From Bacteroidota bacterium (GTDB taxonomy: Bacteria > Bacteroidota > Ignavibacteria > SZUA-365): DNA of 62,607 bases. A model generated the notes under the pieces. It saw nothing but the letters and a program-made list of their open reading frames with translations. It made no database searches and was not told where the DNA came from. Below are positions 2,212-17,248 of the stretch, piece by piece; the first letter of the stretch is position 1; every line of letters begins with the position of its first letter. The stretch is taken from the NCBI GenBank assembly GCA_029907355.1, contig JARYLZ010000009.1, forward strand, positions 1 through 62,607. Reading direction: 5' to 3'. The translations under genes were made by a program, and so were the position numbers.

Positions 2212-4482
2212 ATGTCGCATATCGATAGAGTCTTGCTTGAACCTCCCATGCATATAGGACGCGTTCCCCTCGGTATCTTTCTCATCCTTTTGTTCACACT
2301 GACCGCAGGCGCGCAGGAACGCAAGGGCGGGGTGAAGGGTTTCGTCATCGACTCCACGTCCGGCGAGCGTCTCTCTCTCGTGAACGTGACCGTCGTCGGG
2401 AAAGGGCTCGGGGCGGCGACGGATCACAACGGCTTTTTTTTCATCGGCAATATCCCAGAGGGAACGGTGGTCATCCGCGCAACGATCATCGGTTACCGGA
2501 GCATGGAGCGCGAGATCCGCATCGCCGCAGGCAAAATCCAGAGTTTGAATTTCGCTCTGCCCCCGCTTCCAGTCGAGATCGAAGGAGTTGAGCAAGTCGC
2601 GGAAAGGAGGACGAGGTACGAAACGGAAATCAGTACGCAACCCATAGGGCAGAAGGAACTCGAGATCGTTCCGGCAATCGTCGAAAAGGATTTGTTTCGC
2701 ACCATTTCCATTTTGCCGGGTGTTGTCGCGACGAGCGATGTCAGCAGCCAGTTCTATGTGCGTGGCGGGGGAGGCGATCAGAATCTGATCATCCTGGACG
2801 GGATGACGATTTACAACCCTTTTCACGCTCTCGGGATCTTCTCTATCTTCGATGCCGATGCCGTCAAGGAAGCTGAGGTACTCAAGGGGGGCTTCCCTGC
2901 AGAGTGGGGAAACCGCTTGTCTTCCGTGATCAACATCCGCACGCGCGAAGGGAACAAGAACCGTTTCTCCGGGAAGGTCAGCTCCAGCCTGGTCAGCGGC
3001 AAACTTCTCTTGGAAGGTCCGACCCCGTGGGACGGTTCTTGGATGATCGCGGGGAGGAAGAGCTTTCTCGACGACGTCCTGCAGAAATTCGTTCGTAGCG
3101 AAACACCCTTCGATTTCTACGATCTGATCGCTCGGGCCAACCATTCGACGGGTGAGAATGGGCGGGTTTCCTTCCACACCCTGTTCAGCGGTGACATCAT
3201 CCGACCGGAGTCGCGTTCGGAGCCCGAGTATCTCTGGAACAATCGCGCGTACGGCATAAGCTGGTTCCAGGTGCTCGAAAACAGGTACCTTCTGGAAACG
3301 ACATTCTCCTTCAGCAATTTCAAGGGGGAACTCCGGCCGCGGGAAAACTCGGAGATCGCCCCCCGCGTAAGCGAGATCGACGACACGTACTTCAACGGGG
3401 CGGTGACATATTTCCGGGAAAACGGTGACCAGTACGGGGCGGGGTTCATGTTCCGCTTTCCTTCGTATCATTACTCCTTTACGAATGCCGCGAATTATAC
3501 GAGAGATATCTATGATAAAAGCAATGAAACGGGTATTTGGTTAAAGTATAAGTTTAAGACCCTTAAACCATTCGCCTTCGAAATCGGCGTCCGTTCCGAC
3601 CTGTTCTCCGTTCTTTCTGTCCATGCCAGCGATGCCTTCGAACCCCGTCTCTCGGTGAGCTGGGACATCGATAATGCCCATGCATTGAAGTGCGCCTATG
3701 CTCGGATCCACCAGCGCATGATCACGATCACGAACGAGGACGATATCGTTTCCCTGTTTGAGACTTGGATCCCAATCCCGGAAGATTCCCCCTCACAACA
3801 AGCCGATCATTTCATCGTGGCATTCGATGGGAATGTCCCCAAGGTAGAGGGGGTGAACTACAACATCCAGGCGTATTTGAAGTCCATGACGAATCTCGTC
3901 GAGTATAACCGGGACAAGGTCGATGCCTCGGATCCGGATTTTACTTCGGCACGAGGGAAATCGTACGGGCTCGAAGTATTTATCGAGCGCAGGCACCCCG
4001 TCTGGTACGGGTGGGCGTCATATTCGCTGGGGTATACGGAGCGGCTGGTAGGCGATTTCCATTACTCGCCTCGCTACGATCGGAGGCATAATCTGAATCT
4101 CATCCTCGGTTTCAAGCCTGCTGTCGGCTGGGACGTCAATTTCCGCTGGGAATTCGGGAGCGGTCTTCCGTTCACGCAGATCATGGGTTTTTACGACAGA
4201 TTATTGTTCGGAGGGATTTTCGAGGGCAAGGGCTATATCGACGAGAAAGGGGTGCCGTACACTATACTCGGCGAAAAGAACCGGGGGCGTTTGCCCGCAT
4301 ACCACCGGCTCGACATCAGCGTTTCCAAATCCTTCACTCTCGGTATGGTTCGCCTTTTCGTCGAGGGGAGCATCCTCAACGTGTACGATAGGAAGAACAT
4401 GTTCTATTTCAACCAGACGACCGGTGAGCGGATCGACATGCTTCCTCTCCTTCCCACGTTGAATCTCAAGGTGGAATTTTAA
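2212..4482 (+). CDS. TonB-dependent receptor with carboxypeptidase-regulatory-like N-domain
   Basis: Outer-membrane active transporter (substrate unknown) powered by TonB. A hydrophobic signal peptide ends near AGAQ (about residue 35). It is followed by a CarboxypepD_reg-like beta-sandwich (about 40-120, motif GFFFIGNIPEG), a plug domain (about 135-245, with FYVRGGGGDQNLIILDG) and a long 22-strand-type barrel that ends in LPTLNLKVEF, with a terminal Phe. Length 756 aa is normal for receptors of this architecture in Bacteroidota. ATG 2212 has AAGGGG 4 nt upstream; ATG 2248 would give a tidier signal peptide but has no ribosome site. The next gene, a sugar transferase, starts 22 bp after the stop, so the two may be co-transcribed. 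Confidence 0.88.
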   Translation: MSHIDRVLLEPPMHIGRVPLGIFLILLFTLTAGAQERKGGVKGFVIDSTSGERLSLVNVTVVGKGLGAATDHNGFFFIGNIPEGTVVIRATIIGYRSMEREIRIAAGKIQSLNFALPPLPVEIEGVEQVAERRTRYETEISTQPIGQKELEIVPAIVEKDLFRTISILPGVVATSDVSSQFYVRGGGGDQNLIILDGMTIYNPFHALGIFSIFDADAVKEAEVLKGGFPAEWGNRLSSVINIRTREGNKNRFSGKVSSSLVSGKLLLEGPTPWDGSWMIAGRKSFLDDVLQKFVRSETPFDFYDLIARANHSTGENGRVSFHTLFSGDIIRPESRSEPEYLWNNRAYGISWFQVLENRYLLETTFSFSNFKGELRPRENSEIAPRVSEIDDTYFNGAVTYFRENGDQYGAGFMFRFPSYHYSFTNAANYTRDIYDKSNETGIWLKYKFKTLKPFAFEIGVRSDLFSVLSVHASDAFEPRLSVSWDIDNAHALKCAYARIHQRMITITNEDDIVSLFETWIPIPEDSPSQQADHFIVAFDGNVPKVEGVNYNIQAYLKSMTNLVEYNRDKVDASDPDFTSARGKSYGLEVFIERRHPVWYGWASYSLGYTERLVGDFHYSPRYDRRHNLNLILGFKPAVGWDVNFRWEFGSGLPFTQIMGFYDRLLFGGIFEGKGYIDEKGVPYTILGEKNRGRLPAYHRLDISVSKSFTLGMVRLFVEGSILNVYDRKNMFYFNQTTGERIDMLPLLPTLNLKVEF

Positions 4483-4504: not shown

Positions 4505-5917
4505 ATGGCGGATTTCCGGCGCAACGATCTGTTGATCCCGTTCCTAACGGTTCTTTGCGACGCCGTCGCGACCGTCGGCGCATTTCTCGCGGCTTACGGT
4601 ATTCGCTTTTACAGCCCTCTCATCGGGATCGTTCCGGTCACGAAAGGTGTCCCGCCTTTGGAAATGTATCTCGCCGGGGGTCTGATCACGGCGCCGATCT
4701 GGATTCTGATGTTCCAGTCCAAACGTGTGTACCGACCACGTCGTGGCGTCGATGCCAGTGCGGAGTTTTTCCTCGTCGCCCGTGTCGTGAGTTACGGGAT
4801 GCTGGTGGTGTTTACTCTGGCGTTTTTTTACCGCGAGTTCTCCTACTCCCGCCTGGTGTTCCTCTTCATCTGGGTGTTCTCGATCGCTTTCATCACCGTG
4901 GGCAGGGCAGTGGTACTCGCGCTCGAGCACAGACTCTACGAGCGTGGACGCGAACTGCGCAATGTCATGCTCATCGGTGTCAACGCCGTCGCGCAGAATA
5001 TCGCACTCTGGCTCAAACAGCGCAGGGGGGCGGGCTACAGACTGGTTGGTTACGCATCGAATCCGGATGAACGTCTGGAAACAGTCGAAGTGCCGCGGAT
5101 TTGCGGGTACGAAGGGATCGCCGACGCCGTCGACCGTTTCCGCATCGAGACGGTGATCCTCTGTATGAACGATCCGCCCAAGGAACTTCTGAACGGGATC
5201 ATGGATGCCTTGGCCGGGCGGAACGTGCAGTTTCTCCTGCAAGCGGACGTCATCGGGATCACCCCGACGCGGCTTCGCCTCCAGGAATTCTTCGGTCTCC
5301 CTTTTCTCGGGGTGAAGGACATCCCCATGACTACATGGGGTCGTATCGTGAAACGATCGTTCGACATTGCGGTCGCCGGAATCGTGCTCATCGTGTTCGC
5401 GCCTCTGTGGGGACTCGTTGCGCTTCTGATCTTGCTCGAGTCGGGGAAACCGGTTCTCTACCGGCAGACCCGTGTCGGTCTGTACGGCGAGGAATTTACT
5501 CTGCTGAAGTTCCGAACGATGCATGTGGACGCGGAGAGGGAGAGCGGACCCACATGGACACGGAAGAACGACCCCCGCATCACGCGCGTGGGTCGGTGGT
5601 TGCGCCGCTTCAGCATCGACGAAATCCCCCAGTTCGTCAATATTCTTCGGGGCGAGATGAGCATCGTCGGGCCGCGACCAGAACGGCCTGAATTCGTTCG
5701 GCAGTTCCGGATGTACGTCCCGAAGTACCTCGAACGGCACCGCGTAAAGACCGGCCTTACGGGCTGGGCCCAGGTGAACGGGTTACGCGGCGAAGTCCCT
5801 ATCGTCGAGCGGACGAAATATGACATCTACTACATCGAGAACTGGTCCTTCAACCTGGATCTGCGCATCATCCTGAAAACCGCTCGGACCGTTCTCTTCG
5901 GCAAGGACGCATACTAA
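4505..5917 (+). CDS. Polyprenyl-phosphate glycosylphosphotransferase (exopolysaccharide/O-antigen initiation)
   Basis: Membrane enzyme that transfers a sugar-1-phosphate from a nucleotide sugar to undecaprenyl phosphate, the first step of exopolysaccharide or lipid-linked glycan assembly. The N-terminal half has about four hydrophobic segments (residues 8-30, 52-70, 88-108, 116-135), followed by a Rossmann-like CoA-binding domain (about 150-270). The C-terminal catalytic domain (about 278-470) starts with KRSFDIAVAG and a reentrant helix and carries the family motifs KFRTMHVDAE, RRFSIDEIPQ and SIVGPRPERP. Length 470 aa is typical of the WcaJ/EpsL class. No glycosyltransferase cluster is seen beside it, so the glycan made is unknown. 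Confidence 0.92.
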   Translation: MADFRRNDLLIPFLTVLCDAVATVGAFLAAYGIRFYSPLIGIVPVTKGVPPLEMYLAGGLITAPIWILMFQSKRVYRPRRGVDASAEFFLVARVVSYGMLVVFTLAFFYREFSYSRLVFLFIWVFSIAFITVGRAVVLALEHRLYERGRELRNVMLIGVNAVAQNIALWLKQRRGAGYRLVGYASNPDERLETVEVPRICGYEGIADAVDRFRIETVILCMNDPPKELLNGIMDALAGRNVQFLLQADVIGITPTRLRLQEFFGLPFLGVKDIPMTTWGRIVKRSFDIAVAGIVLIVFAPLWGLVALLILLESGKPVLYRQTRVGLYGEEFTLLKFRTMHVDAERESGPTWTRKNDPRITRVGRWLRRFSIDEIPQFVNILRGEMSIVGPRPERPEFVRQFRMYVPKYLERHRVKTGLTGWAQVNGLRGEVPIVERTKYDIYYIENWSFNLDLRIILKTARTVLFGKDAY

Positions 5918-5919
5918 CC

Positions 5920-6234
5920 ATGATCGCGGCATTCATTTTCTACTTGCATATCGTGGGCGCCGTATATGCCTTCTCGTACAGCTATTGCAAGCACAAGCTC
6001 GGGGATGCATTCATGGCCGTCGCCTTCGTCGGAGTGATCTTTTCGGTCGGGTGGACCATTGCCGCTTTCGTGGTTCGATTCACCGTTCCTCCTCATGGGT
6101 TCAAGCCGTGGTTAGACACGGACACCCTCTCCCTCATCATCGTCACCATCCTGGAGGCCGTTCTCTACGGTACGTATTTCCGAGCGACGCGTCTCCGCAG
6201 GAAACGCAGCGAGGTCACCGAGGACGGAACGTAA
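5920..6234 (+). CDS. Small integral membrane protein, unknown function
   Basis: 104 aa starting 2 nt after the sugar transferase stop, so probably translated from the same transcript. Three hydrophobic stretches (about residues 2-20, 29-52 and 70-88) suggest three membrane passes, followed by a basic tail (RATRLRRKRSE). No family recognised. Its last 20 bp overlap, tail to tail, the 3' end of the minus-strand tonB gene. Position suggests a role with the sugar transferase, but this is only context. Confidence 0.6.
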   Translation: MIAAFIFYLHIVGAVYAFSYSYCKHKLGDAFMAVAFVGVIFSVGWTIAAFVVRFTVPPHGFKPWLDTDTLSLIIVTILEAVLYGTYFRATRLRRKRSEVTEDGT

Positions 6235-7069
6235 ATATGGCCGTTGCAGACTGGTTCTTCCGATCGGAATCGTTGGGGAGAGGGGTGAATTTCCATGAGC
6301 GCACAGCGTTGAGGACGGCGCGCTCAAAGGGAGAGGCCGCTTTCTGGACGAGGACGATATCGGAGACCGTTCCGTCGGGTGCGACGGTGAAACGGACGGT
6401 GACCTGCGCTTCCCCTTCGGCTTCTTCCGGGTAAAGCGGGAGTCTCCCCGCCACGCGGTTCCTTTGCAGTCCGTCTCCCCAGATGATGCGAACCGTGGAA
6501 CCGGCCAGGTTTTCCGTGCCGCCGACGGGCGAAGGAGGAATGGGCCGAGCCGTCGTCCCTTGCGTCGACGGTATGCCGCCTGGCAAACCGCTCTGCCTGC
6601 TTCGTTCACCGCCCGGCGGTGGGAGCGGTATGCCGGGTTCCGTCGTGATCGGTGCTTTGGTCGTTTGCCGGTCCGGCATGTCGAGCGGACCGACCGTCCC
6701 CGTTCTGGGCGACGGTACCGTTCCCGTCGATGTGGTCGGCCTCGTAGTCGATGGAGGAGGTGTCGTCCTGCGGGGGGAGAGGGTTTGCGTGTTTCGTGGG
6801 GATGGCTTCGGCGATTCGGCACGTGGGGTCCGCGATGCGGTACGCGTCTCGCGGAGAGGGGATAGCGTTTTTCGGCTGGGGGGAAGTTGCGTGCGTTTCT
6901 CCGCCTCTTTCAGGTGAGCTGGAACCTTCTCTTCGGAGAGGATAATCTCGAGATCGCGTACAATCGGTCTGCCGGAATCCCATGAAAGGAGAAAAGCTAA
7001 AAGGAAAAGGATCGCATGAACCCCGAGGGAAACGCCCCACCCCGTTTTTTTCTCTTCATGGAATTTCAT
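6215..7069 (-). CDS. tonB: TonB family energy-transducing protein
   Basis: Inner-membrane-anchored periplasm-spanning protein that passes proton-motive-force energy from ExbB/ExbD to outer-membrane partners. A short cytoplasmic N-terminus is followed by one transmembrane helix (about residues 14-30, VHAILFLLAFLLSW), a long Pro/Thr/Arg-rich linker (about 50-195), and a TonB C-terminal domain (about 200-284) with VTVRFTVAPDGTV and the helix AVLNAVRSWKFTPL. I used the methionine at 7067-7069 rather than the longer frame to 7132, because the helix then sits at the expected distance. The start overlaps the end of exbD by 14 bp. It is the last gene of the minus-strand operon, and its 3' end overlaps a convergent gene by 20 bp. 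Confidence 0.88.
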   Translation of the reverse strand: MKFHEEKKTGWGVSLGVHAILFLLAFLLSWDSGRPIVRDLEIILSEEKVPAHLKEAEKRTQLPPSRKTLSPLRETRTASRTPRAESPKPSPRNTQTLSPRRTTPPPSTTRPTTSTGTVPSPRTGTVGPLDMPDRQTTKAPITTEPGIPLPPPGGERSRQSGLPGGIPSTQGTTARPIPPSPVGGTENLAGSTVRIIWGDGLQRNRVAGRLPLYPEEAEGEAQVTVRFTVAPDGTVSDIVLVQKAASPFERAVLNAVRSWKFTPLPNDSDRKNQSATAIFTFRPR

Positions 7070-7481
7070 CGTCGGATACAGGTGGTGATGTCGAGATGAA
7101 AAACCGGTATGCGCCGAGACCGCGGGAAACATCCATCACGCGAACGGCACGCGCGACAGGGACTTCCTTGTCGCTGGAAAGGATGATGGTCTGACCGCTG
7201 GGTTCGGTCAGGGCGTTGGCGAGCACATCGCGTAACGAGGAGTCCGTTGCCGGTGTTTCGTTGACGTACATCCGACCGTCGCGGTACAGGGTGACCGTGA
7301 CATCCCTGCGATCCGAACTCTGCGCATGTTCCGCTTTCGGGAGAACGACCGGCAGGCCTTCCGTCGCGATGAACGACGAGGTGAGAAGGAAAAAAATGAG
7401 GAGGAGGAGGACGATATCCGTGAGGGAGGAATAGCTGAACACGGATAACGGTTTATGAGTTTGTGTGAGTCGGATCTTCAT
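7056..7481 (-). CDS. exbD: ExbD/TolR family biopolymer transport protein
   Basis: Component of the proton-driven ExbB-ExbD motor. One N-terminal transmembrane helix (about residues 17-37) contains the conserved proton-carrying aspartate in SLTDIVLLLLIFFLL. The remaining ~100 residues form the periplasmic domain, including the typical segment IILSSDKEVPVARAVRVMD. 141 aa is the usual length. ATG 7481 is preferred over 7502 because GGGGAA lies just upstream of it. Starts 17 nt after the exbB stop and overlaps tonB. Confidence 0.92.
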   Translation of the reverse strand: MKIRLTQTHKPLSVFSYSSLTDIVLLLLIFFLLTSSFIATEGLPVVLPKAEHAQSSDRRDVTVTLYRDGRMYVNETPATDSSLRDVLANALTEPSGQTIILSSDKEVPVARAVRVMDVSRGLGAYRFFISTSPPVSDDEIP

Positions 7482-7498
7482 TGTCGTTCCCCTTGCGC

Positions 7499-8143
7499 TC
7501 ATCGCGGGGCCACCGGACGAGGGCCGGAGGGGTGTTCGGCCTGCGCGATATCGAGGAAATCGTTGCAGCTGTTTTCGGTTTCAAACACGAAATGCGCGAT
7601 GCGGTTTACGAAATAGTTGTACATGAAGTACACCGGAATCCCGACGATGAGGCCGAACGCCGTCGTCAGGAGCGCTTCCCAGATACCTCCCGCGAGCACG
7701 GTCGGATTGACGACCCCTTGATGCAGTTCTACGGTGCGGAAAGCGGAGATCATACCCGTGACAGTCCCGAGGAACCCGAGCAAGGGGGCGATCCCGGAGA
7801 CCGAAGCGAGAAGGCCCAACCCGCGCTCCAACTTGTAGATCTCGTTCTTCGCGGCGGCTTCGATGGCTTCCCGTACCTCCTGCTGTGAATGCTTCAGCTT
7901 GAGGAGCCCGCTGCGGAGAATGGCGGAAAGCGGCGAATTCGCTTCCGAGCAAAGCGAAAGGGCGGCGGAGATATCCCCGCTCTGCAGGATGCTGCGGATC
8001 TGGAGGACGAACTTGCTCCCGTCCACCCGGGCGCGTGAGAGGACGATGAACTTCTGCACGATGATGGCGAGAGCGAGGATCGAGCACGCGAGGATGAACC
8101 ACATGATGATTCCTCCCCGGAGGAACAGTTCGAAGATCGTCAT
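7499..8143 (-). CDS. exbB: MotA/TolQ/ExbB proton channel family protein
   Basis: Multi-spanning subunit of the motor that energises TonB. It has a first helix near the N-terminus (about residues 8-30, IIMWFILACSILALAII), a cytoplasmic loop rich in charged helices, then two helices, GLLASVSGIAPLLGFLGTVTGM (about 118-140) and the signature ALLTTAFGLIVGIPVYFMYNY (about 165-190) with the conserved threonines. Starting at ATG 8143 gives 214 aa, normal for the family; the frame is open further upstream, but that stretch is the end of the preceding gene read in another frame. The start overlaps the upstream stop by 4 bp (ATGA, 8140-8143), indicating translational coupling. Confidence 0.92.
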   Translation of the reverse strand: MTIFELFLRGGIIMWFILACSILALAIIVQKFIVLSRARVDGSKFVLQIRSILQSGDISAALSLCSEANSPLSAILRSGLLKLKHSQQEVREAIEAAAKNEIYKLERGLGLLASVSGIAPLLGFLGTVTGMISAFRTVELHQGVVNPTVLAGGIWEALLTTAFGLIVGIPVYFMYNYFVNRIAHFVFETENSCNDFLDIAQAEHPSGPRPVAPR

Positions 8144-9321
8144 AACGTACTCCGAGATGATGCGGGATGAAGGGGTCGAGTCGTGATCGATGCGGTGAGC
8201 GTGAGGCCGGGTGTTGTGCATTCCCGAACGGATAGACGCTCGATACGGCCGTTCGCATGCTTGAACCATTGCGGAAGGACGGGGTCGAACAGGTTCATCA
8301 TCCACCCGAGGAAGAGGAGAATGCACACCGCAATGACGGCGGCGATGAGGAGGATGAACCCCCTGCTCCTTCTCGAGGAGGAAACGGGCGGGTGGAAAAG
8401 ATGTTGCCGGTTCTGTTCGAAAATTTCGCGCGAATCCGCCTCTTTCCCCTCCGTCGTGCTTGCGTCTAATGGCGGGGTCTCTTCCCGCGCATTCGTCCGG
8501 GCTGAATAAGGAATGATCGGGTCGAAATCGCGCGGGGTCCCTTCCTCGTTCGAAACAGGGGGAAAACTTCTCTCCCCTCCTGATCGTTGCGGTTCGGCGA
8601 ATGTTTTCCGGATGTACTCGCGTGCCAGCCGGCCGATGGCATTGATATCGAGCGGTGCATTGGAGGGGTCGCCTTGGACCATGTTCTCTTCACCCGTGTC
8701 GTTTCCACTTCCCGAGTGAACCGGTAAGGGAAGCCCGAGTTCGGTGGTGACTTCCCGCACGATGCGAGCGAGATCCACGGCCTTTCGTTCTCCTGTCGAG
8801 GTCGAAGGGTGCTCCATCATGTCTTCCTGCCCCTGGGAAGTGGAGGAAGGCATGGCACCCGTAAGGAAATTCCCCGTCGAGGCGGCGAAGGGAAATTCGT
8901 CTTCGCCTGCTTGGGAGGTACTCGCAGCTGGGCGGGATTCGGCAGCCCACGTACCGAGTGCCTCGAATGAAACGGCCTCGCCGGTCGAAAGACGTTGTCG
9001 AATGGAGTCGAGGACAGCGTGTGCGATGATCGTGCACGTTTCCGTGGAAATTCCGGCCCGATGTGCCGTCTCTTCCATTATGCGCGAAAAGGGTATCAGC
9101 GGCTGGTTGGGGATATCTCCACTGCCGAGGGTCGCCGGCAGAAAACGGGGACCATGCATGGCGGGCAACAGAACCCCGAGGTTTCCGACGGTCACCGCGT
9201 GATGGGCATCCATCGCTTCACCCACTGTTGCGACGAAGGCCTCGAACCATGAACGGACGAGATCGGTCCCCAGGTCCAGGATGCACGCGGCTTCATCGAT
9301 GATGCGTTGTTCTGCTTTCAT
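8140..9321 (-). CDS. HU-like domain membrane protein in a TonB operon
   Basis: 393 aa. The N-terminus (about residues 1-70) resembles an IHF/HU-type fold: helical start ...IIDEAACILD, then VTVGNLGVLLPAM. A second similar unit (about 85-130) has SIRQRLSTGEAVSFEALGTW. Together they recall the tandem HU-like module of Bacteroidota proteins usually fused to a SPOR domain. Next comes a long low-complexity Ser/Thr/Glu/Pro region (about 130-310), Arg-rich residues, one transmembrane helix (about 321-342, ILLIAAVIAVCILLFLGW) and a ~50-residue tail without a SPOR domain. The HU part would be cytoplasmic. ATG 9321 was chosen over TTG 9327. It starts 2 nt after the barrel gene and overlaps exbB by 4 bp. 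Role in the module is unknown; the HU assignment rests on pattern only. Confidence 0.62.
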   Translation of the reverse strand: MKAEQRIIDEAACILDLGTDLVRSWFEAFVATVGEAMDAHHAVTVGNLGVLLPAMHGPRFLPATLGSGDIPNQPLIPFSRIMEETAHRAGISTETCTIIAHAVLDSIRQRLSTGEAVSFEALGTWAAESRPAASTSQAGEDEFPFAASTGNFLTGAMPSSTSQGQEDMMEHPSTSTGERKAVDLARIVREVTTELGLPLPVHSGSGNDTGEENMVQGDPSNAPLDINAIGRLAREYIRKTFAEPQRSGGERSFPPVSNEEGTPRDFDPIIPYSARTNAREETPPLDASTTEGKEADSREIFEQNRQHLFHPPVSSSRRSRGFILLIAAVIAVCILLFLGWMMNLFDPVLPQWFKHANGRIERLSVRECTTPGLTLTASITTRPLHPASSRSTL

Positions 9322-9323
9322 GC

Positions 9324-11054
9324 TCAAAGCCGATACGAAATGCCTGCGGTCGCGGTGAAGGGAAGTGCTCGGTACCCCCGGAATATCTCGTAGCGCTTGT
9401 CCAACACGTTGCGGAATTCCAGGAACACGCCGAGCGACCTGAGAATGCGGTACTCCGCGCCGAGATGGACGAGGAGAACGGAGGGCAGAGCACCTTCGGG
9501 ACAGGGACGGGTACCGAGGAGGAATCCTTCACACCATGTGCGGAGTCCGAATGGAAAGAGATATGTGCAGCGGACGGACGATTCGCCGTTCGGGAGGTAC
9601 GGGACGCCTTGCTCGAGGACCGTGTTCCGGCTGTCTCTGAATACGAGTGCGGCATGGATGTTCATCGCAACCAGGATATCCCAGAGCAACTCCCCCCTGA
9701 GTTCGGTCACCGCCGTGTAGCCCTCGTAGCGGACCTTCCACTGCCTCTCCCCAGGTGTTTCATTGCGGAGGAAAAGGGGGACGTTCCGCATGCCTTTGAA
9801 TGAACCGGTGACAGTGACGCGGAAAGAGCCGCGGTCGACGTAGGCTGCCCCAAGAGCGAATTCCTCGTGAATGTCACGGGGACGGATTTCCGGCCCGGCC
9901 GTCACGTACGGGTTGAAGTCGAGGAGGTCGCGGAAGGTCAGGTTCTCCACTGCTGAACGCCAGCTTGCGGATAAGGTAAGCCGGTCGGTCATGGAGTACT
10001 CCGCCCTGAGGGCGGGATAGATCCTGACTGCTGTGGATCCGATGCTGCCCCGGGAGAAATACAGGCCCAGCATGCCCTGGAGAGTAAAATCCTTCGCAAG
10101 AGAATACCGCGAACTCGCGGAGGATGAGAAAAAGAAGGTGTGCTGTGCGTTCAGGGTTGTCTCCGTGTGATGGGCCGCGGCGAACACGGAAGAGAGATCG
10201 ATAGGGAGGTCGAAAAGTTCGATCCGCACGCATCCCTCGAGTGAATATGCCCGTTCGAGAAAGGAAGATTCCGCCAGCGGAATGCTGTCGCGTACCGAGA
10301 CGGTTTCCTTCAAAGAGGTGTACGCGATACCTGCACGCAGGGAATAATCGATGATTCTGTTCCTCCGCGAATGTATTTCCCCTCGTGCACCCAACCGCAG
10401 GGCGTCCCGGGTAAAATCGAGGGCGTCTGCGTCCTGCCGTGGCGGGTCGCCGTAGCACGAGTACCCGTCGAATCGGACATTTCCCTCACCGGAGACGCGT
10501 GAACGTGCAAAGAAGGGAGGGGCGGAGGAGGGAAAATACGAACCGCCGGACAGGGCGAAGGCGTACCGGTCGTAGGAGGAGCGTGGCACATGTCCATCGC
10601 TGTGCTCGAGACGAGCGGAAGCCGCCATATCCCCCTTGAAGAATGTTCTCCCGAACCAGGATTCGAGAGCAGGGGTACCGTAACTCCCGTAAGAGGCGCG
10701 CGCGAGCAAGGTGGTCGCATCCACAGCGTAGTTCGTCGGAGTGGGGGTTGTCCCCTGCCGAGAAGGCACAGTATTCCACGAGATCCGACTCCCTCGACCT
10801 GCCATACCCACCAGGGCGGATGGATCATACCATGCCGGTATTTCTTTCGTGGCGTTTTCGAATCGCAGGACGTCATTGCCCGTGATGATGAATTCCGGGA
10901 AAGAAAGTGGGGAGAGCATCCGGGAGCGCCGTGCGGTATCGGTGGGCGCCGGAGGCGAAGGCGGCTGCGGTTTTTCCTGCGCCCCGGCAAGGGTTGCGAC
11001 GAGGAGCGCACCGATACCGAGCGGAACGGCGATGAACGGACGGCCGGGTATCAT
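9324..11054 (-). CDS. TonB-receptor-like outer-membrane barrel lacking a plug domain
   Basis: Signal peptide (cleavage after about LAGAQ, residue 26), a Pro-rich linker, then about 500 residues of alternating beta-strands with aromatic girdle residues. The end is typical of TonB-dependent receptors: EFRNVLDKRYEIFRGY followed by a last strand GISYRL. The plug motifs seen in the receptor at 2212-4482 (for example the VRGGGGDQN region) are absent, and 576 aa is too short for a plug plus a 22-strand barrel. Its start overlaps the TPR gene stop by 4 bp and its stop lies 2 nt before the HU-like gene. Co-expression with a TonB motor suggests an energised outer-membrane complex rather than a classical uptake receptor. 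That is inference. Confidence 0.75.
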   Translation of the reverse strand: MIPGRPFIAVPLGIGALLVATLAGAQEKPQPPSPPAPTDTARRSRMLSPLSFPEFIITGNDVLRFENATKEIPAWYDPSALVGMAGRGSRISWNTVPSRQGTTPTPTNYAVDATTLLARASYGSYGTPALESWFGRTFFKGDMAASARLEHSDGHVPRSSYDRYAFALSGGSYFPSSAPPFFARSRVSGEGNVRFDGYSCYGDPPRQDADALDFTRDALRLGARGEIHSRRNRIIDYSLRAGIAYTSLKETVSVRDSIPLAESSFLERAYSLEGCVRIELFDLPIDLSSVFAAAHHTETTLNAQHTFFFSSSASSRYSLAKDFTLQGMLGLYFSRGSIGSTAVRIYPALRAEYSMTDRLTLSASWRSAVENLTFRDLLDFNPYVTAGPEIRPRDIHEEFALGAAYVDRGSFRVTVTGSFKGMRNVPLFLRNETPGERQWKVRYEGYTAVTELRGELLWDILVAMNIHAALVFRDSRNTVLEQGVPYLPNGESSVRCTYLFPFGLRTWCEGFLLGTRPCPEGALPSVLLVHLGAEYRILRSLGVFLEFRNVLDKRYEIFRGYRALPFTATAGISYRL

Positions 11055-14050
11055 CGAAGTCGTTCCAACCGGTTAGCGGCTTCGGCAGCGGTATCGCTCC
11101 CCTTGTACATGCGCAGGATGGTCTCATACGTTTCCCGTGCTTTTGCCGTTTTGCCCTGCCTATCGTACACGGTCCCCAAGTGGAGAAGTGAACGGGCCGA
11201 CCATTCCACGGAATGCGGGTAGATGTAACAGACGCGGAGGAGAGCGCGTTCGGCTTCCTCGAGTTTCCCTGCATCGAGGAGCGTTTCGCCTGCGCGAAAC
11301 TGCGCTTCGGCGCCAAGATCGTCCGATCGGGAGCCTGCGATTTCGTTCAACATGGCGACGGCGGCATCGGTTTCACCGTGTCGACCCATGCAACGTGCCT
11401 TCTCGATTGCGGCCAGCGTCCCGTACATCCCGAGGGAATCCACGGCGATGGCTTTTTCGAAGTCTGCGGCGGCCGCTTGGTCATCTCCGGCATGGGACTC
11501 GGCGATTCCCCGGCGGTAATGGAGTTCTGCAAGAACGGAGGCCGAGGTCGCCGAGGAGATCAGGGCGTTATAGATGGCGATCGCATCGCGCGGTTGCTGT
11601 TCGTCAAGCGAGATGCGGGCAAGCTCACGGGCGGCCTCCGGTGAGGCGGCGGGGTCGCTCCCCGGGGGGAGAAGAATTTCCAGCGTGCGGCGCGCACTAT
11701 CGAATAGCCCCCGTTCGCGGTAAACTTGGGCGAGGAGCAGGCGTGCGGCGGGGAGTTGCGGGTTCGTCGGCGCATCGCGGAGAAACACCACGAGGACATG
11801 CGTGGCCTGATCGAGTCGTCGTTCAGCGACGAGTTTTCTCGCGATCGAGAGTGCCACGTTCCCGGCGACCGGCGCGCTGGTATTTTGCGACAGCCAGCGT
11901 TCCGCCACGGTGGCCGATTCCGTCGTCCGACCAAGCATGGATAGACACTGAGCAATGCCTTCGAGCGCGTCCGCACAGAGCGGTGAAGAGGGGTAGCGCG
12001 AGAGAACCTCGCGATAGGCTTTCTCCGCCTCGATGTACCGTCCACGGTTGTAAAGGCAATCGCCGATACTTTGCGCCGCCCGCGGGGCGAGCGGGCTCTC
12101 GGGGTATTGCTGGAGGAGACGTTCGAATTCGACCGCTGCCGAGTCGTATTCCCTCGCCTGGAAAAAGAGCCAGCCGAGGTTGTATTGGCCGTCGTCCGCG
12201 AAATCGGATTTCGCATAGGACGCGAGCATGGCACGGATGGTCGCGATTCCTGTTCGCGTGTCTCCGCTCCGGTGTTCCGAAATGCCCGCATGCATGAGGG
12301 CGTACGGGGCGAGAGGGTGGGCGGGATAGGTGCGTGCGGCTTGGCGATAGGTGCGCACGGCCTCGGAGTAGCGCTTCAGTGCATACCGCGCGTCTCCCAG
12401 CCGAACCAGGGCGTCCATATCCTGGCGTCCTCCGGGATACGCGCGCGTCAGGGCATCGAAGCACTGTTCCGCCTCGGCGTACCGTTCGAGTTTGAAGTAC
12501 GACCAGCAGCGTCCGTATTGGGCGTCGTACCGGACGTCGGGTTTCGCATCGCCGGCGAGTACCGCCTCGTATGCGTTGATGGCTTCAAGGTAACGTCCGA
12601 GCTGGAAGAGAGACTCGCCTTGCCAGAGGAATGCCTCGGCGAGATGCGGGTTCCCCGGGTTGCCGCGCACGAAGTCACGGAAAGCCGCGGCAGCCTTATC
12701 GAAACGTCCCGCTTCGAAGAAGCTGTGGCCGAGGCGGAATGCCGCATTGCTCTGTGTCGCTTTCGACGCGGTCGAGTCGCGGAGTACCGCGCTGAAATAC
12801 GCACTCGCCTCGGCCGGGCGGCGCAGTTTCATGAGCGTTTCACCTGCCATGTACCACGAATCGGCGTGCACATCGCTCGATGGGAATGCATCGATGATAT
12901 GTTCGAACCGGTTGAGGGCCTCGGAGAGACGATCCGACCGGTAGGCGAGCATCCCCAGTTCGAAGTGCGCGTTATCCGCCCATGCGCTCGTCGGGTGCGC
13001 GCGCACGAACTCTTCCAGCGTCTGGTTCGCCTCGTCCACCCTGTCCGCTGTGCGGAGGGCAATGCCCTTTCCGTAAGCCGCCGCTTCCGCGATGGCGTCG
13101 CCTCCTCCGAGAAGACTGTCGAACTCTGCGATGGCTTCGCTGTATTTCCGGAGTTCGATGAGGCTCAGCCCGAGCGTGTAACGTATCGACCGCGCTCGGC
13201 TGTGCCGCGGATACGCCTCGAGATACGCTCGGCAGTGCAGAACCGCTGCGGGGTAATCCTTCGAAAGGTAACGAATCTCAGCACGCATGGCGAGGCGCTC
13301 GGCTGCATTGTCGGCATCAGGGCTGTCGGTGAGGCTGTCCAGCCATGTTTCTGCCCGATCGCGCTCGCCCATGCCGAAGAGGCAAGCGGCGATACGTGTC
13401 AATGCGCTGGAACGGAGCGGCGATGTGGGATACGTGTCCAAAAAGGCGGTATATCCCTCGTATGCATCCGCGAAACGCTGTTCGCGCTCATCCATGAACG
13501 CGAGCGAAAAATCGGCGTAATCCCGGATGCGACCGGAAGGGTAATGCTCGATCGCCAATCGGAAAAACATGCGTGCGGTCCGGGAATCCCCCTCGTTGAA
13601 TGCGCTCTCACCAGCCCAGTATGCCGCCTCGTGAGCAATTTCCGACTCCGGGAATTCGCGGATGACGCGCTCGAAAATCGAACGGGCTTTTCCGTACTCG
13701 CGGCGCCGGAAAGCGATCTCGCCCGTGCGGAATAGGGCTTTATCCGTAAAAGAGTGACGAGGGTAGCGTTCGAGAAAATCCGAAAATGCAATCTCGGCGT
13801 CCGTGAACAGCTCGCGCCGAAAAAGGCATTCCCCCGCATAATACTGCGCGTCCGCAGCAGCAATGCTTTCAGGGTATTTCTTGAAAAAGGAAACGAATTC
13901 ACCATACGCGATGTCGTAGTTTCCATCGTGAAAGAGCCCCATCGCGAACGCGAGATCCTGTTGCTGCTTCTGAACGGTGTCTTGACCGCACACCGTGGAA
14001 ACGATGATGAATGTCCCCAGAGATGTGGCCATCAACGTACGGAGGTTCAT
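11051..14050 (-). CDS. Large secreted tetratricopeptide-repeat protein (CpoB/YbgF-BamD-like repeats)
   Basis: 999 aa with a signal peptide (residues 1-22, ending VCGQ), predicted periplasmic. The rest is a near-continuous array of TPR-type helical pairs of ~36 residues, with recurring phrases such as YPESxxAxDAxYYAGE, FxxxIRxFPxSxxAxxAxY and LGxxxYxxGRYxEAxxAY. I count roughly 22-25 units. The repeat style resembles CpoB/YbgF and BamD, which act at the outer membrane and, for CpoB, with the Tol-Pal motor. It is first in a minus-strand operon leading to a receptor-like barrel, ExbB, ExbD and TonB, so it may be the periplasmic scaffold of that system. Its start at 14050 faces the divergent moxR gene. 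Confidence 0.85.
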   Translation of the reverse strand: MNLRTLMATSLGTFIIVSTVCGQDTVQKQQQDLAFAMGLFHDGNYDIAYGEFVSFFKKYPESIAAADAQYYAGECLFRRELFTDAEIAFSDFLERYPRHSFTDKALFRTGEIAFRRREYGKARSIFERVIREFPESEIAHEAAYWAGESAFNEGDSRTARMFFRLAIEHYPSGRIRDYADFSLAFMDEREQRFADAYEGYTAFLDTYPTSPLRSSALTRIAACLFGMGERDRAETWLDSLTDSPDADNAAERLAMRAEIRYLSKDYPAAVLHCRAYLEAYPRHSRARSIRYTLGLSLIELRKYSEAIAEFDSLLGGGDAIAEAAAYGKGIALRTADRVDEANQTLEEFVRAHPTSAWADNAHFELGMLAYRSDRLSEALNRFEHIIDAFPSSDVHADSWYMAGETLMKLRRPAEASAYFSAVLRDSTASKATQSNAAFRLGHSFFEAGRFDKAAAAFRDFVRGNPGNPHLAEAFLWQGESLFQLGRYLEAINAYEAVLAGDAKPDVRYDAQYGRCWSYFKLERYAEAEQCFDALTRAYPGGRQDMDALVRLGDARYALKRYSEAVRTYRQAARTYPAHPLAPYALMHAGISEHRSGDTRTGIATIRAMLASYAKSDFADDGQYNLGWLFFQAREYDSAAVEFERLLQQYPESPLAPRAAQSIGDCLYNRGRYIEAEKAYREVLSRYPSSPLCADALEGIAQCLSMLGRTTESATVAERWLSQNTSAPVAGNVALSIARKLVAERRLDQATHVLVVFLRDAPTNPQLPAARLLLAQVYRERGLFDSARRTLEILLPPGSDPAASPEAARELARISLDEQQPRDAIAIYNALISSATSASVLAELHYRRGIAESHAGDDQAAAADFEKAIAVDSLGMYGTLAAIEKARCMGRHGETDAAVAMLNEIAGSRSDDLGAEAQFRAGETLLDAGKLEEAERALLRVCYIYPHSVEWSARSLLHLGTVYDRQGKTAKARETYETILRMYKGSDTAAEAANRLERLR

Positions 14051-14328
14051 TTCCGCTTTGGAATCTTGGAATATTGGGTAAGACTTAAAGCAACGCTCGA
14101 AAAAGTCATTGTAACTCGATCAAAGGTAGTGCATACCATACCCAGTGTCAAGGGGAAAAGGCAGCTGTCTAAGAGGATCACGCAAGGAAAGGAAAACGAA
14201 TAGGCGAGGTACAATGATTATGGTGAAAAGATTCTGTGAGCCTCAAGAAATTTTCCGGTCGAAACGGATATTTTCCTCTCTGGGACGTTTTCCGTATTCT
14301 GCGCATGGAAATTCTACGTGGGGGAGTA
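14051..14328. promoter_or_regulatory. Divergent promoter region between the TPR-TonB operon and moxR
   Basis: 278 bp between the diverging starts at 14050 (minus) and 14329 (plus). It is AT-richer than its flanks, especially about 14060-14140. This position must carry at least one promoter in each direction, but no element with convincing sequence and spacing could be assigned. An open frame from GTG 14236 runs into moxR but lacks a ribosome site. Confidence 0.4.
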
Positions 14329-15636
14329 ATGAAGCCCGATCATGCGGCAAACGGCTTCGATGTTTCCTTTGCGCTGGAAAAAATCCGGCGAGCGAAAGAA
14401 GAGGTGAATGAACGGCTGGTTGACCGCGAGGAGGTAGTTGACCAGATCTTCTACGCTCTGATTACGAGGGAGCACGCGCTTGTCCAGAGCAGAACCGGCG
14501 CGGCGAAATCTCTCCTCGCAAGGCAAATTTTCGCAATGTTCGAAGGTGCCCGCCTCTTTCAAGTTCAAGCTTCAAAGGAACAGCAGCCGGACACCTATTT
14601 CGGGGCACTCGATATCGAGGAGTTGAAGAAAGGGCGAGTCGTGCATAACACCCGCGGTTCGCTGGTCGATGCGGAATTCGGCTTTATCGATGAAATCTTC
14701 GATGCGAACGATTACACCCTACGAGCCCTCCTGACGACCCTCAACGAACGCGCTCTCGTACTCGGGGCGCAGGTTGTCCCTGCCCCCCTTCACACGGTTA
14801 TCGCGGCGACGAATTACCTGCGAATCAGTGAGGTAACCGAGGCGGTGCTCGACCGCTTCGTGTACAAATCGGTGATCCACCCGTCCAAGGAACCTGCCGC
14901 CCAGTATCTGATCGCCCGCCGATACCTCCGCCATGGGGGACAGCCCGCCCCACCTCGGGAAACCGTACCCTTCACGTTGCTCGATCGGGTCTCACGCATC
15001 GTCACGGGGAACGACCCAAGGCTGACCGTCCGGGTCCCCGCCGAGGTCGTGTTTCTCGCCAACATCGCCGTGAAGTATTTCGAGACGGCCAGGAACAGGC
15101 GCATCAAGGAAAGGCCGCAGGACCACCCGTACACGAAAGACGGTTACATTTCCCCGCGCACGTACGCGAAGGGCCTCGATACCCTCCGTGCGAGCGCTTT
15201 CCTCGACGGCCGCACCGAAGTCACTGCCGACGACATCGTGAATCTCCGCTACCTGCACACCATCGTCGGTTTGAAAGACCAGGAGGAGCTTTTCCGGAAA
15301 TCCGTTGAAACCGTTTTGCGGCATTACACGACGGCAGGTGCATGGGATCAGCTTCGGACTCTCCTCGCGTTCCAGGAACTTCTCGATTCCCTCCGCACTC
15401 AGCCGGAAATGCTTTCCCAACCCGTCACACTCTTGGAAGAGTTCCCCTTCCGTCGCAACCTACTCGAGTGGGTCAAGGACAAACTGGGTCTCGAAAGGGG
15501 CGGTATCGCGGTCAACCGCCGTCTCTTCGAGTCGTTCATCGAGAGCATAGAGCCGAAGACCGAAGAAATCCTCGATCTCAAGCGGAGACAGGAGATGGAG
15601 ATCGCGAAGCTTTTCCGAGCAGCGACGGAGGATTGA
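14329..15636 (+). CDS. MoxR-family AAA+ ATPase
   Basis: Cytoplasmic AAA+ chaperone-like ATPase, 435 aa. The Walker A region reads QSRTGAAKS (the usual GxxGxxKS with the first Gly replaced by Ser), and Walker B is GFIDEIFDA. Sensor 1 is in VIAATNY, and RISEVTEAVLDRF is the typical MoxR/RavA region. MoxR proteins work with VWA-domain partners on metal insertion, complex assembly or stress functions. ATG 14329 was chosen because GGGGAG lies 2 nt upstream; the frame extends to GTG 14236 without a ribosome site. The VWA gene follows after 4 nt, so the two form one unit. The client of this pair is not indicated by neighbours. Confidence 0.88.
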   Translation: MKPDHAANGFDVSFALEKIRRAKEEVNERLVDREEVVDQIFYALITREHALVQSRTGAAKSLLARQIFAMFEGARLFQVQASKEQQPDTYFGALDIEELKKGRVVHNTRGSLVDAEFGFIDEIFDANDYTLRALLTTLNERALVLGAQVVPAPLHTVIAATNYLRISEVTEAVLDRFVYKSVIHPSKEPAAQYLIARRYLRHGGQPAPPRETVPFTLLDRVSRIVTGNDPRLTVRVPAEVVFLANIAVKYFETARNRRIKERPQDHPYTKDGYISPRTYAKGLDTLRASAFLDGRTEVTADDIVNLRYLHTIVGLKDQEELFRKSVETVLRHYTTAGAWDQLRTLLAFQELLDSLRTQPEMLSQPVTLLEEFPFRRNLLEWVKDKLGLERGGIAVNRRLFESFIESIEPKTEEILDLKRRQEMEIAKLFRAATED

Positions 15637-15640
15637 CGAG

Positions 15641-17248
15641 GTGAGGGAGCCCTTTTTCCGCGTGATGGAAGAACTGGGGTTCTTCGAGAGAATCGAGGGA
15701 AAATTACCTGAGCATTTCACGGCGGTCTACGAGATCGCCCGCGTGCTGGATAACCCTGCCCACGTTCTCACCAGGCGCCTTTCACCCGCGTTGAAGCTCG
15801 GCCATCCCGGACGACGGGCCGCTGAACGTCCGCCGGAACCTGAGCAAGCGGCCGTACCCGTGCTCGCCGGGGAGGACGAATACGAGGCCGGAACGATTCG
15901 TTCACCGCGAGACATTCCCCGGATGTACCTCTCGCAGTGGCTTTTCCCCCAAGAGGTCCTGTATCGAAAACTGGCGAAGAAAGAACTCCTCGTTCCTTAT
16001 CCGAAAGCGCCGTGCGTGTACCCCGTGGAACCGGACCGACGCGGCTACGATCCCGACGCACGGAAACAGAAACTTTACATTCTCTTGGACACATCGTCGT
16101 CCATGGCGGTGAAGAACCGTATCCATGTCGCGAAGGCGGTGTGCTACCACATGCTGGTCCGGAACATGCGGGAACTCGGCTTCATCACGATGCGCACATT
16201 CGACGTGTCGGTGGGAGAAAGGCACGAAGCTTGCGACCGGCAGGGGTTCCAGGACTTGTTGAGACTCCTCGCGCGTGTTCGCACTCTCGGAGACGGCACG
16301 GCGATGGCTCGGGCCGTGATGCAGGCGGTGGAGGACATCGCTCGGGTACCTTCGCTCGCATCTGCAGAGATCCTGATCATTACTGATGGCGCCTGTGTCC
16401 TCGATGAAGAGCGTATCCGCGCCTTGATGGAGAGACACAAGGTCGTCATCCATACTGTCAAGATCGGGCGGATACGCCTATACCCGCCGCGCAGTGTTCT
16501 TCACGACATGCTTTTCGCTTCCGGAGGAAAGGGAAGCAGAGTCATCGCCGACATGCAGGCGAAGGAAAGGGAACTCCGCCGCCTGAGAGATGCGGCACAC
16601 TCGCCGCAGCGGCGCCGCCTATACGAAGAATCGCTCGCTTCCGTACGCAGGGAAATCGAGAAGGCAATCCGCATTCGGACGGACGAAATCGTCTCGGGCT
16701 ATGGGCGCGAACTGGAACGGCTCAGCAGGGTCTACGTAGAAATCGACGATATGGACATGGCCGAGCTCTTGCCCGACCGTGAGGAAAGCGGGCGGGAACT
16801 GCGCCGCCTGCTCGAATCCGTCCGCGGGGAGATGGAAGACCCCGTTTCGTCGACGGCAGTGAGAAAACTCGCTCTGCTATGCGCCCATGCCGAGTTTCTT
16901 TCGTCGGTCTTCGAAGAGAAGAGGGGTGACGGTATGTTCACGCGCATCGCGCAGGAAACACACGAGTATCTGTTGCCTTTTCTCGGAGGCAAACATGGGG
17001 CAGGAGCGTATGGAAGCGAGATACTGTTCGGTGATGACATGCGCGATGTGCGATGGATCCTTTCCGTACCGGGTTTACGTCGAACCTCGTTATGGCGTCT
17101 GCTCGAATATGTAATCCGATCCGCTCTTCGCAGCTTCCGAAACATGAAACCGGCGAGCAGCATGGCGAGGAAAGGAAGCGCTCGACGGTGTGGTTCACGG
17201 TTCGTGGAGGGGTATTCGAGTTCTAAGAATTCAGAGCGAGTACGGTGA
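15641..17248 (+). CDS. VWA-domain protein, partner of the MoxR ATPase
   Basis: 535 aa. A von Willebrand A fold (about residues 140-285) carries a MIDAS metal site, DTSSSM at residues 150-155, with further elements LGDGTAMARA and IITDGAC. No signal peptide, so probably cytoplasmic. After the VWA domain there is an Arg/Glu-rich, probably coiled-coil segment (about 305-400). The C-terminal ~60 residues are unusually basic and Ser-rich. It begins with GTG 15641, with GGAGG 8 nt upstream, 4 nt after moxR. MoxR-VWA pairs commonly act on a protein client; none is evident here, as the downstream genes encode ATP synthase. Confidence 0.82.
   Translation: MREPFFRVMEELGFFERIEGKLPEHFTAVYEIARVLDNPAHVLTRRLSPALKLGHPGRRAAERPPEPEQAAVPVLAGEDEYEAGTIRSPRDIPRMYLSQWLFPQEVLYRKLAKKELLVPYPKAPCVYPVEPDRRGYDPDARKQKLYILLDTSSSMAVKNRIHVAKAVCYHMLVRNMRELGFITMRTFDVSVGERHEACDRQGFQDLLRLLARVRTLGDGTAMARAVMQAVEDIARVPSLASAEILIITDGACVLDEERIRALMERHKVVIHTVKIGRIRLYPPRSVLHDMLFASGGKGSRVIADMQAKERELRRLRDAAHSPQRRRLYEESLASVRREIEKAIRIRTDEIVSGYGRELERLSRVYVEIDDMDMAELLPDREESGRELRRLLESVRGEMEDPVSSTAVRKLALLCAHAEFLSSVFEEKRGDGMFTRIAQETHEYLLPFLGGKHGAGAYGSEILFGDDMRDVRWILSVPGLRRTSLWRLLEYVIRSALRSFRNMKPASSMARKGSARRCGSRFVEGYSSSKNSERVR

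Follow-up and report, generated by a model that had tools for sequence, protein, structure and literature searches.

A Conserved Bacteroidota Operon Pairing a Plugless Receptor-Type Barrel with an ExbB-ExbD-TonB Motor: a Candidate Tol-Like Envelope Machine

Results

The window analyzed here, a stretch of 62,607 nucleotides from a Bacteroidota bacterium of the class Ignavibacteria (contig JARYLZ010000009.1), carries on its minus strand, from position 14050 down to 6215, six genes arranged head to tail that encode, in order, a TPR protein, a barrel, an HU-like protein, ExbB, ExbD and TonB. The open reading frame list and the sequence, together with the structure models described below, gave the following features.

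14050-11051, minus strand: TPR protein gene, 999 aa
11054-9324, minus strand: barrel gene, 576 aa, overlapping the TPR gene by 4 nt
10878..10898, minus strand: TonB-box-like motif PEFIITG within the disordered N-terminal tail of the barrel (residues 53-59)
9321-8140, minus strand: HU-like protein gene, 393 aa from its ATG, with a 2-nt gap to the barrel gene
8290..8373, minus strand: predicted transmembrane (TM) helix spanning residues 317-344 of the HU-like protein, from the model helix and hydrophobicity
8143-7499, minus strand: exbB, 214 aa, overlapping the HU-like gene by 4 nt
7502-7056, minus strand: exbD, overlapping exbB by 4 nt, with an alternative start ATG at 7481
7069-6215, minus strand: tonB, 284 aa, overlapping exbD by 14 nt

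The gene order, strand and overlaps described in an earlier note on this DNA were confirmed on both the open reading frames and the sequence. A 17-nt gap that it had listed is found before exbD if translation starts at the ATG at 7481; with the start at 7502, exbB and exbD overlap by 4 nt. Pfam identified ExbB (PF01618, 3.7e-32), ExbD (PF02472, 1.2e-23) and the C-terminal domain of TonB (PF03544, 9e-12), as well as TPR repeats in the first protein. The general receptor at 2212-4482 is, as had been claimed, a separate entity: it is an ordinary plugged receptor (PF07715, 1e-9), whereas the operon barrel has no such domain.

No Pfam family matched the barrel. AlphaFold2, run on a 44-row alignment, predicted 22 strands (pLDDT 83) beginning at residue 113 and preceded by a disordered N-terminal tail (residues 41-111 mostly below pLDDT 50), and the matches from Foldseek and from a PDB profile search were to TonB-dependent receptors, whose fold and C-terminal motif the barrel shares. 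A plug (PF07715) was found neither by Pfam nor in the AlphaFold2 model, nor was one found in any member examined. Plug domains comprise some 130 residues, and as only about 53 residues separate the TonB-box-like motif from the first strand in the model, a plug cannot fit. The barrel is thus plugless, as first suspected, and an ordinary plugged receptor is ruled out.

The motif in the tail, PEFIITG, is similar to the TonB boxes that plugged receptors of the same genome carry (NEVIVTA, DPILVTG, REIVVTA and GEVIVSA). Among relatives, the barrel sequence is divergent save for the C terminus and this motif, which is near-invariant with the consensus LPEFVITG. A PSSM built from the genome's own plugged-receptor boxes ranked the motif first of the 570 heptamers in the window's barrel. 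Taken alone, however, the score is modest, since 54 of 5000 shuffled versions of the tail reach it, and so the case for the motif rests more on conservation than on score. This conservation was judged on loci selected by whole-barrel similarity (L038-L057 and L188-L207) instead of on those of the named-genome scan described below, which had been picked by the LPEFVITG pattern. The corresponding sequence in other classes is REVEIRG-like and less clearly TonB-box-like. The earlier note had suggested looking for a TonB box in the barrel, and a conserved candidate for one is what the tail appears to hold.

The TPR protein has a predicted signal peptide and scored 408.9 bits against TIGR02795 over 11 stretches; no lipobox cysteine was conserved across the N termini of its orthologues. 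We propose, on sequence grounds, that it is a periplasmic scaffold with CpoB-like repeats, albeit one with 999 aa of repeats, compared with the 250-aa CpoB.

The third gene encodes a single-pass membrane protein with two HU-like segments, whose match to PF00216 (3.6e-5) lies just above the gathering score (24.3 bits versus 22.4). Its top Foldseek matches were to HU/IHF with a probability of 0.96 but an E of 0.4; the model itself is of low confidence (pLDDT 51), and only the weak HU match was used. Pfam found no SPOR domain (PF05036) in this protein, and the window's family is likewise without one. In most relatives, the same slot is occupied by a TM-SPOR protein or, in Kryptonia, Melioribacteraceae and locus L088, by an HU-TM-SPOR protein, and in other classes a separate small HU-like gene often accompanies the SPOR-slot gene. 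The HU-like membrane protein of the earlier note does have HU segments and a helix, but it proves to be one form among several of a SPOR/HU slot. SPOR would appear to have been lost from the HU-HU-TM protein of the window, and the simplest history may be an ancestor with HU plus HU-TM-SPOR, from which SPOR was lost in the window's family and HU elsewhere. SPOR domains bind denuded glycan, which is enriched at the septum (PMC6895207), and the slot, as judged from its domains, suggests division rather more than transport.

Over the proton-path segments, ExbB can be aligned with solved TolQ and ExbB, and its GTVTGM and TTAFGL segments are conserved. It scores below the curated cut-offs for both ExbB (TIGR02797, 74.7 bits versus 206.2) and TolQ (TIGR02796, 110.6 bits in the window and 97-112 in relatives, versus 221). 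ExbD keeps the transmembrane aspartate (LTDIVLLLL), and its motor residues align with those of solved ExbD. TonB has an N-terminal TM helix with SxxxH, a proline-rich linker and a C-terminal TonB domain closest to that of E. coli TonB; this transducer passes TonB family TIGR01352, while for the TolA type (TIGR02794) its 30.5 bits fall below the cut-off of 59.45. Three features of a Ton motor (TonB C-terminal domain, ExbD family and motor residues) are present.

In a phylogenetic tree, the operon ExbBs formed one clade distinct from general ExbB (97/96, bootstrap/SH-aLRT), and when TolQ was added and four long branches were removed, the operon group, at 94 by SH-aLRT, was distinct from TolQ as well. 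The source genome has two MotA_ExbB genes, that of the operon and one in the L037 locus (exbB, two exbD and two tonB). In Kryptonia (L208, L209 and L213), the ExbB-ExbD-TonB trio is not linked to the locus, and its ExbB belongs to the operon clade; in several genomes whose locus is of the TonB-only type, the one MotA_ExbB gene lies elsewhere, which indicates that the motor can be shared. The motor, earlier claimed to be private, has an ExbB clade of its own but is not always private, as seen from the unlinked Kryptonia trio; as a general rule, strict privacy is ruled out by the TonB-only loci and the single-ExbB genomes.

A search with the barrel alone, in which the motif was not used, found matches in 62 of 119 relatives. 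Among the neighborhoods of 20 of these, every same-family locus examined had the order TPR-barrel-HU-ExbB-ExbD-TonB, and loci of other families had TPR-barrel-SPOR-ExbB-ExbD-TonB or, in some, TPR-barrel-SPOR-TonB. The Kryptonia loci among these 20 read TPR-cytochrome-barrel-HU-HU/TM/SPOR, without motor genes at the locus; the gene between TPR and barrel (L051:7784-8200) encodes a reaction-center-type cytochrome c, and genes of similar size are present in L052, L053 and L055. A scan of named genomes gave 53 loci, spread over Ignavibacteria, Kapabacteria, Kryptonia and Melioribacteraceae. In a search across the phylum, 369 of 395 genomes had a barrel match at E <= 1e-4, the weaker of which may be other receptor-type barrels. 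Forty further neighborhoods, taken from the better matches, had barrel-HU-HU/TM/SPOR-ExbB-ExbD(-TonB) in other classes, and some had TPR-barrel only.

Counted by gene, TPR was present at 35/41 named class loci, 17/19 loci of other families of the class and 11/20 loci of other Bacteroidota classes; the corresponding figures for SPOR were 34/43, 17/18 and 15/20. TonB was found at 40/43 and 16/18 of the class loci and was absent from the locus in 12/20 of those in other classes, and ExbB/ExbD lay at the locus in 29/43, 6/18 and 16/20, respectively. The HU model matched 7/43 named class loci. TPR and barrel genes overlapped or were separated by no more than 25 nt in 67 of 74 cases. Since different families and classes preserve the order, the association is real beyond chance, and incidental neighbors are ruled out; the linkage of barrel and TPR genes with exb/tonB asserted at the outset stands, the homologues not being usually found elsewhere. 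The gene set is not peculiar to the source genome; it occurs throughout Bacteroidota, in variants, in most lineages examined.

Neither Pal (TIGR02802) nor TolB (TIGR02800) exceeded its cut-off in any of 34 genomes that were selected because they have the barrel; TolB passed in 2 of 14 control genomes. Among 35 genomes with a weak or no barrel match, Pal passed in seven, these being all of the tested members of one family, f33 (7/7), whose barrel matches are weak or none. Loci of this family (L295, L297, L298 and L299) contain tolQ, tolR, a tolA-like gene, tolB, two tandem pal genes and ybgF, which, tolA excepted, were confirmed by NCBIfam for one locus. The family is probably Chlorobiaceae, for which Tol-Pal has been reported (PMC7391070). 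Three others (f28, f46 and f50) have neither a strong barrel match nor canonical Pal, and so the exclusion between barrel and Tol-Pal is one-sided and replacement is not strict. The cut-offs for TolQ and TolA in the operon, and for TolB and Pal in the 34 genomes, are not reached, which rules out a canonical Tol-Pal identity.

A survey published in 2025 reported that Bacteroidetes lack identifiable tol-pal loci and put forward PorE as a tether, but it named no motor (PMC12204202). Our search for PorE gave partial matches, none over the cut-off, and was uninformative as to its presence, since the controls also fell below. The source genome (G000) has 24 OmpA-domain matches, some of them in PorE-like proteins, and several relatives had fewer in the Pal search.

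Discussion

The operon belongs to neither the Tol-Pal nor the plugged-receptor family, although it shares features with both. Like Tol-Pal (TolQRA-TolB-Pal-CpoB), it has a proton motive force-driven motor of the ExbB/TolQ family, a TonB/TolA-type transducer, a TPR protein with CpoB-type repeats and, to judge from the SPOR of relatives, a likely septal partner. Unlike Tol-Pal, it is without TolB, Pal, or a TolQ over the curated cut-off, and in their place are a barrel that lacks a plug and bears a TonB-box-like motif, and a SPOR/HU membrane protein. With the Ton system it has in common ExbB-ExbD-TonB, the TonB C-domain family, a 22-strand receptor-type barrel and the TonB-box-like motif; the two differ in that the operon lacks a plug and substrate genes, has fixed TPR and SPOR partners, and has its own ExbB clade. 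The third protein of relatives resembles the SPOR divisome proteins FtsN, DamX and DedD in being single-pass with a C-terminal SPOR domain, but its HU domains (N-terminal in several lineages), its operon with a Ton-type motor and the absence of SPOR from the window's own version set it apart.

The gene order and its conservation, the barrel fold, the absence of a plug, the conservation of the motif and of the motor residues, the ExbB clade and the absence of canonical TolB and Pal from the 34 genomes are computed observations, from which we infer a Tol-like function. The best reading, to which we give roughly even credence, is a Tol-like, TonB-powered machine that tethers or constricts the outer membrane. 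That the operon would be a dedicated envelope machine rather than one for nutrient uptake, as the earlier note had it, is supported by the conserved association, the plugless barrel, the box-like motif and the separate ExbB clade. In such a machine, ExbB and ExbD would power TonB with the proton motive force; TonB would span the periplasm and, through its C-terminal domain, presumably grip the barrel by the TonB-box-like motif of its N-terminal tail. There being no plug to extract, it is the outer membrane that would take up the force and so be tethered to the inner membrane or pulled towards it. The TPR scaffold may join barrel, TonB and cell wall enzymes in the periplasm, much as CpoB does for Tol; CpoB coordinates peptidoglycan synthesis with outer membrane constriction (PMC7391070), and by analogy we propose a coordinating role of this kind for the operon TPR protein too. 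The SPOR domain of the HU/SPOR membrane protein would direct the complex to the division septum, and HU may couple it to the nucleoid. So placed, the machine may contribute to outer membrane constriction.

A broader and more tentative idea, which we think has somewhat less than an even chance of being right, is that this envelope system is ancestral to much of Bacteroidota: a Ton-type motor would pull a plugless barrel, an HU-to-septal-peptidoglycan protein would position it, and the whole would replace Tol-Pal, such that lineages with a complete tol-pal are without it.

Several observations count against a tethering or constricting machine. The window's own protein is SPOR-less, TonB is missing from most of the other-class loci, and ExbB/ExbD from about a third of the named class loci. 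Furthermore, a 22-strand barrel that stands open must be closed off by some further element. PorE-like OmpA proteins, moreover, may fill the role of Pal instead. PorE (a CpoB-TolB-Pal fusion; PMC12204202) is likewise a proposed stand-in for Tol-Pal in the same phylum, but it has neither motor nor barrel, and the operon could provide the force transducer that PorE lacks.

The main rival reading is export through the barrel, with TonB pulling a gate (the TPR protein or the N-terminal tail) so that the channel passes or assembles protein, lipid or polysaccharide outwards. The large plugless barrel and a TPR partner like those of other export machines would suit such a role, and there is a precedent in Myxococcus, where the TonB-dependent transporter Oar is needed for secretion of the PopC protease (PMC6434023). 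However, no substrate gene was found linked across loci, the constant SPOR/HU partners fit division better, and the barrel diverges everywhere but in the tail motif and the C terminus; we regard export as unlikely. Slightly less likely again is a Tol-like role in outer membrane lipid homeostasis or asymmetry, as opposed to constriction. In its favor, the motor and the TPR partner match those of Tol-Pal in kind, and in Salmonella Tol-Pal lowers outer membrane glycerophospholipid levels (PMC6013679), but no lipid-transfer domain was found among the operon genes or at the loci of relatives, and here too the SPOR/HU partner suggests division. A TonB-dependent nutrient receptor of the ordinary kind, its plug supplied by a partner and an exb/ton cluster lying nearby, is very improbable: the barrel fold and C-terminal motif are of the right type, but no member examined has a plug, there are no substrate genes, the TPR and SPOR partners are conserved across classes, the ExbB clade is separate, and plugged receptors and a general exbB-exbD-tonB locus lie elsewhere in the genome.

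The combination of genes is probably new; the earlier note knew of no description of it, and we found none in the searchable open literature, a coverage from which subscription journals and bioRxiv are mostly excluded. For the question of how dividing Bacteroidota, without Tol-Pal, constrict their outer membrane, the gene set offers a testable candidate for both the motor and its outer membrane target. If a Tol-like tether or constriction machine is indeed what it encodes, TonB would act not only by moving a plug but also by pulling directly on the membrane.

On the plus strand, convergent to tonB, lie genes for a sugar-phosphate transferase (PF02397/PF13727) and a 104-aa membrane protein (4505-6234), the latter gene ending within the end of tonB; in other loci, these were the convergent tonB neighbors in 22/64 and 29/64 cases, respectively. 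Divergent from the TPR gene, at 14236-17248 on the plus strand, are genes for a bpMoxR AAA ATPase and a vWA protein, and vWA or MoxR relatives adjoin the operon in several same-family loci.
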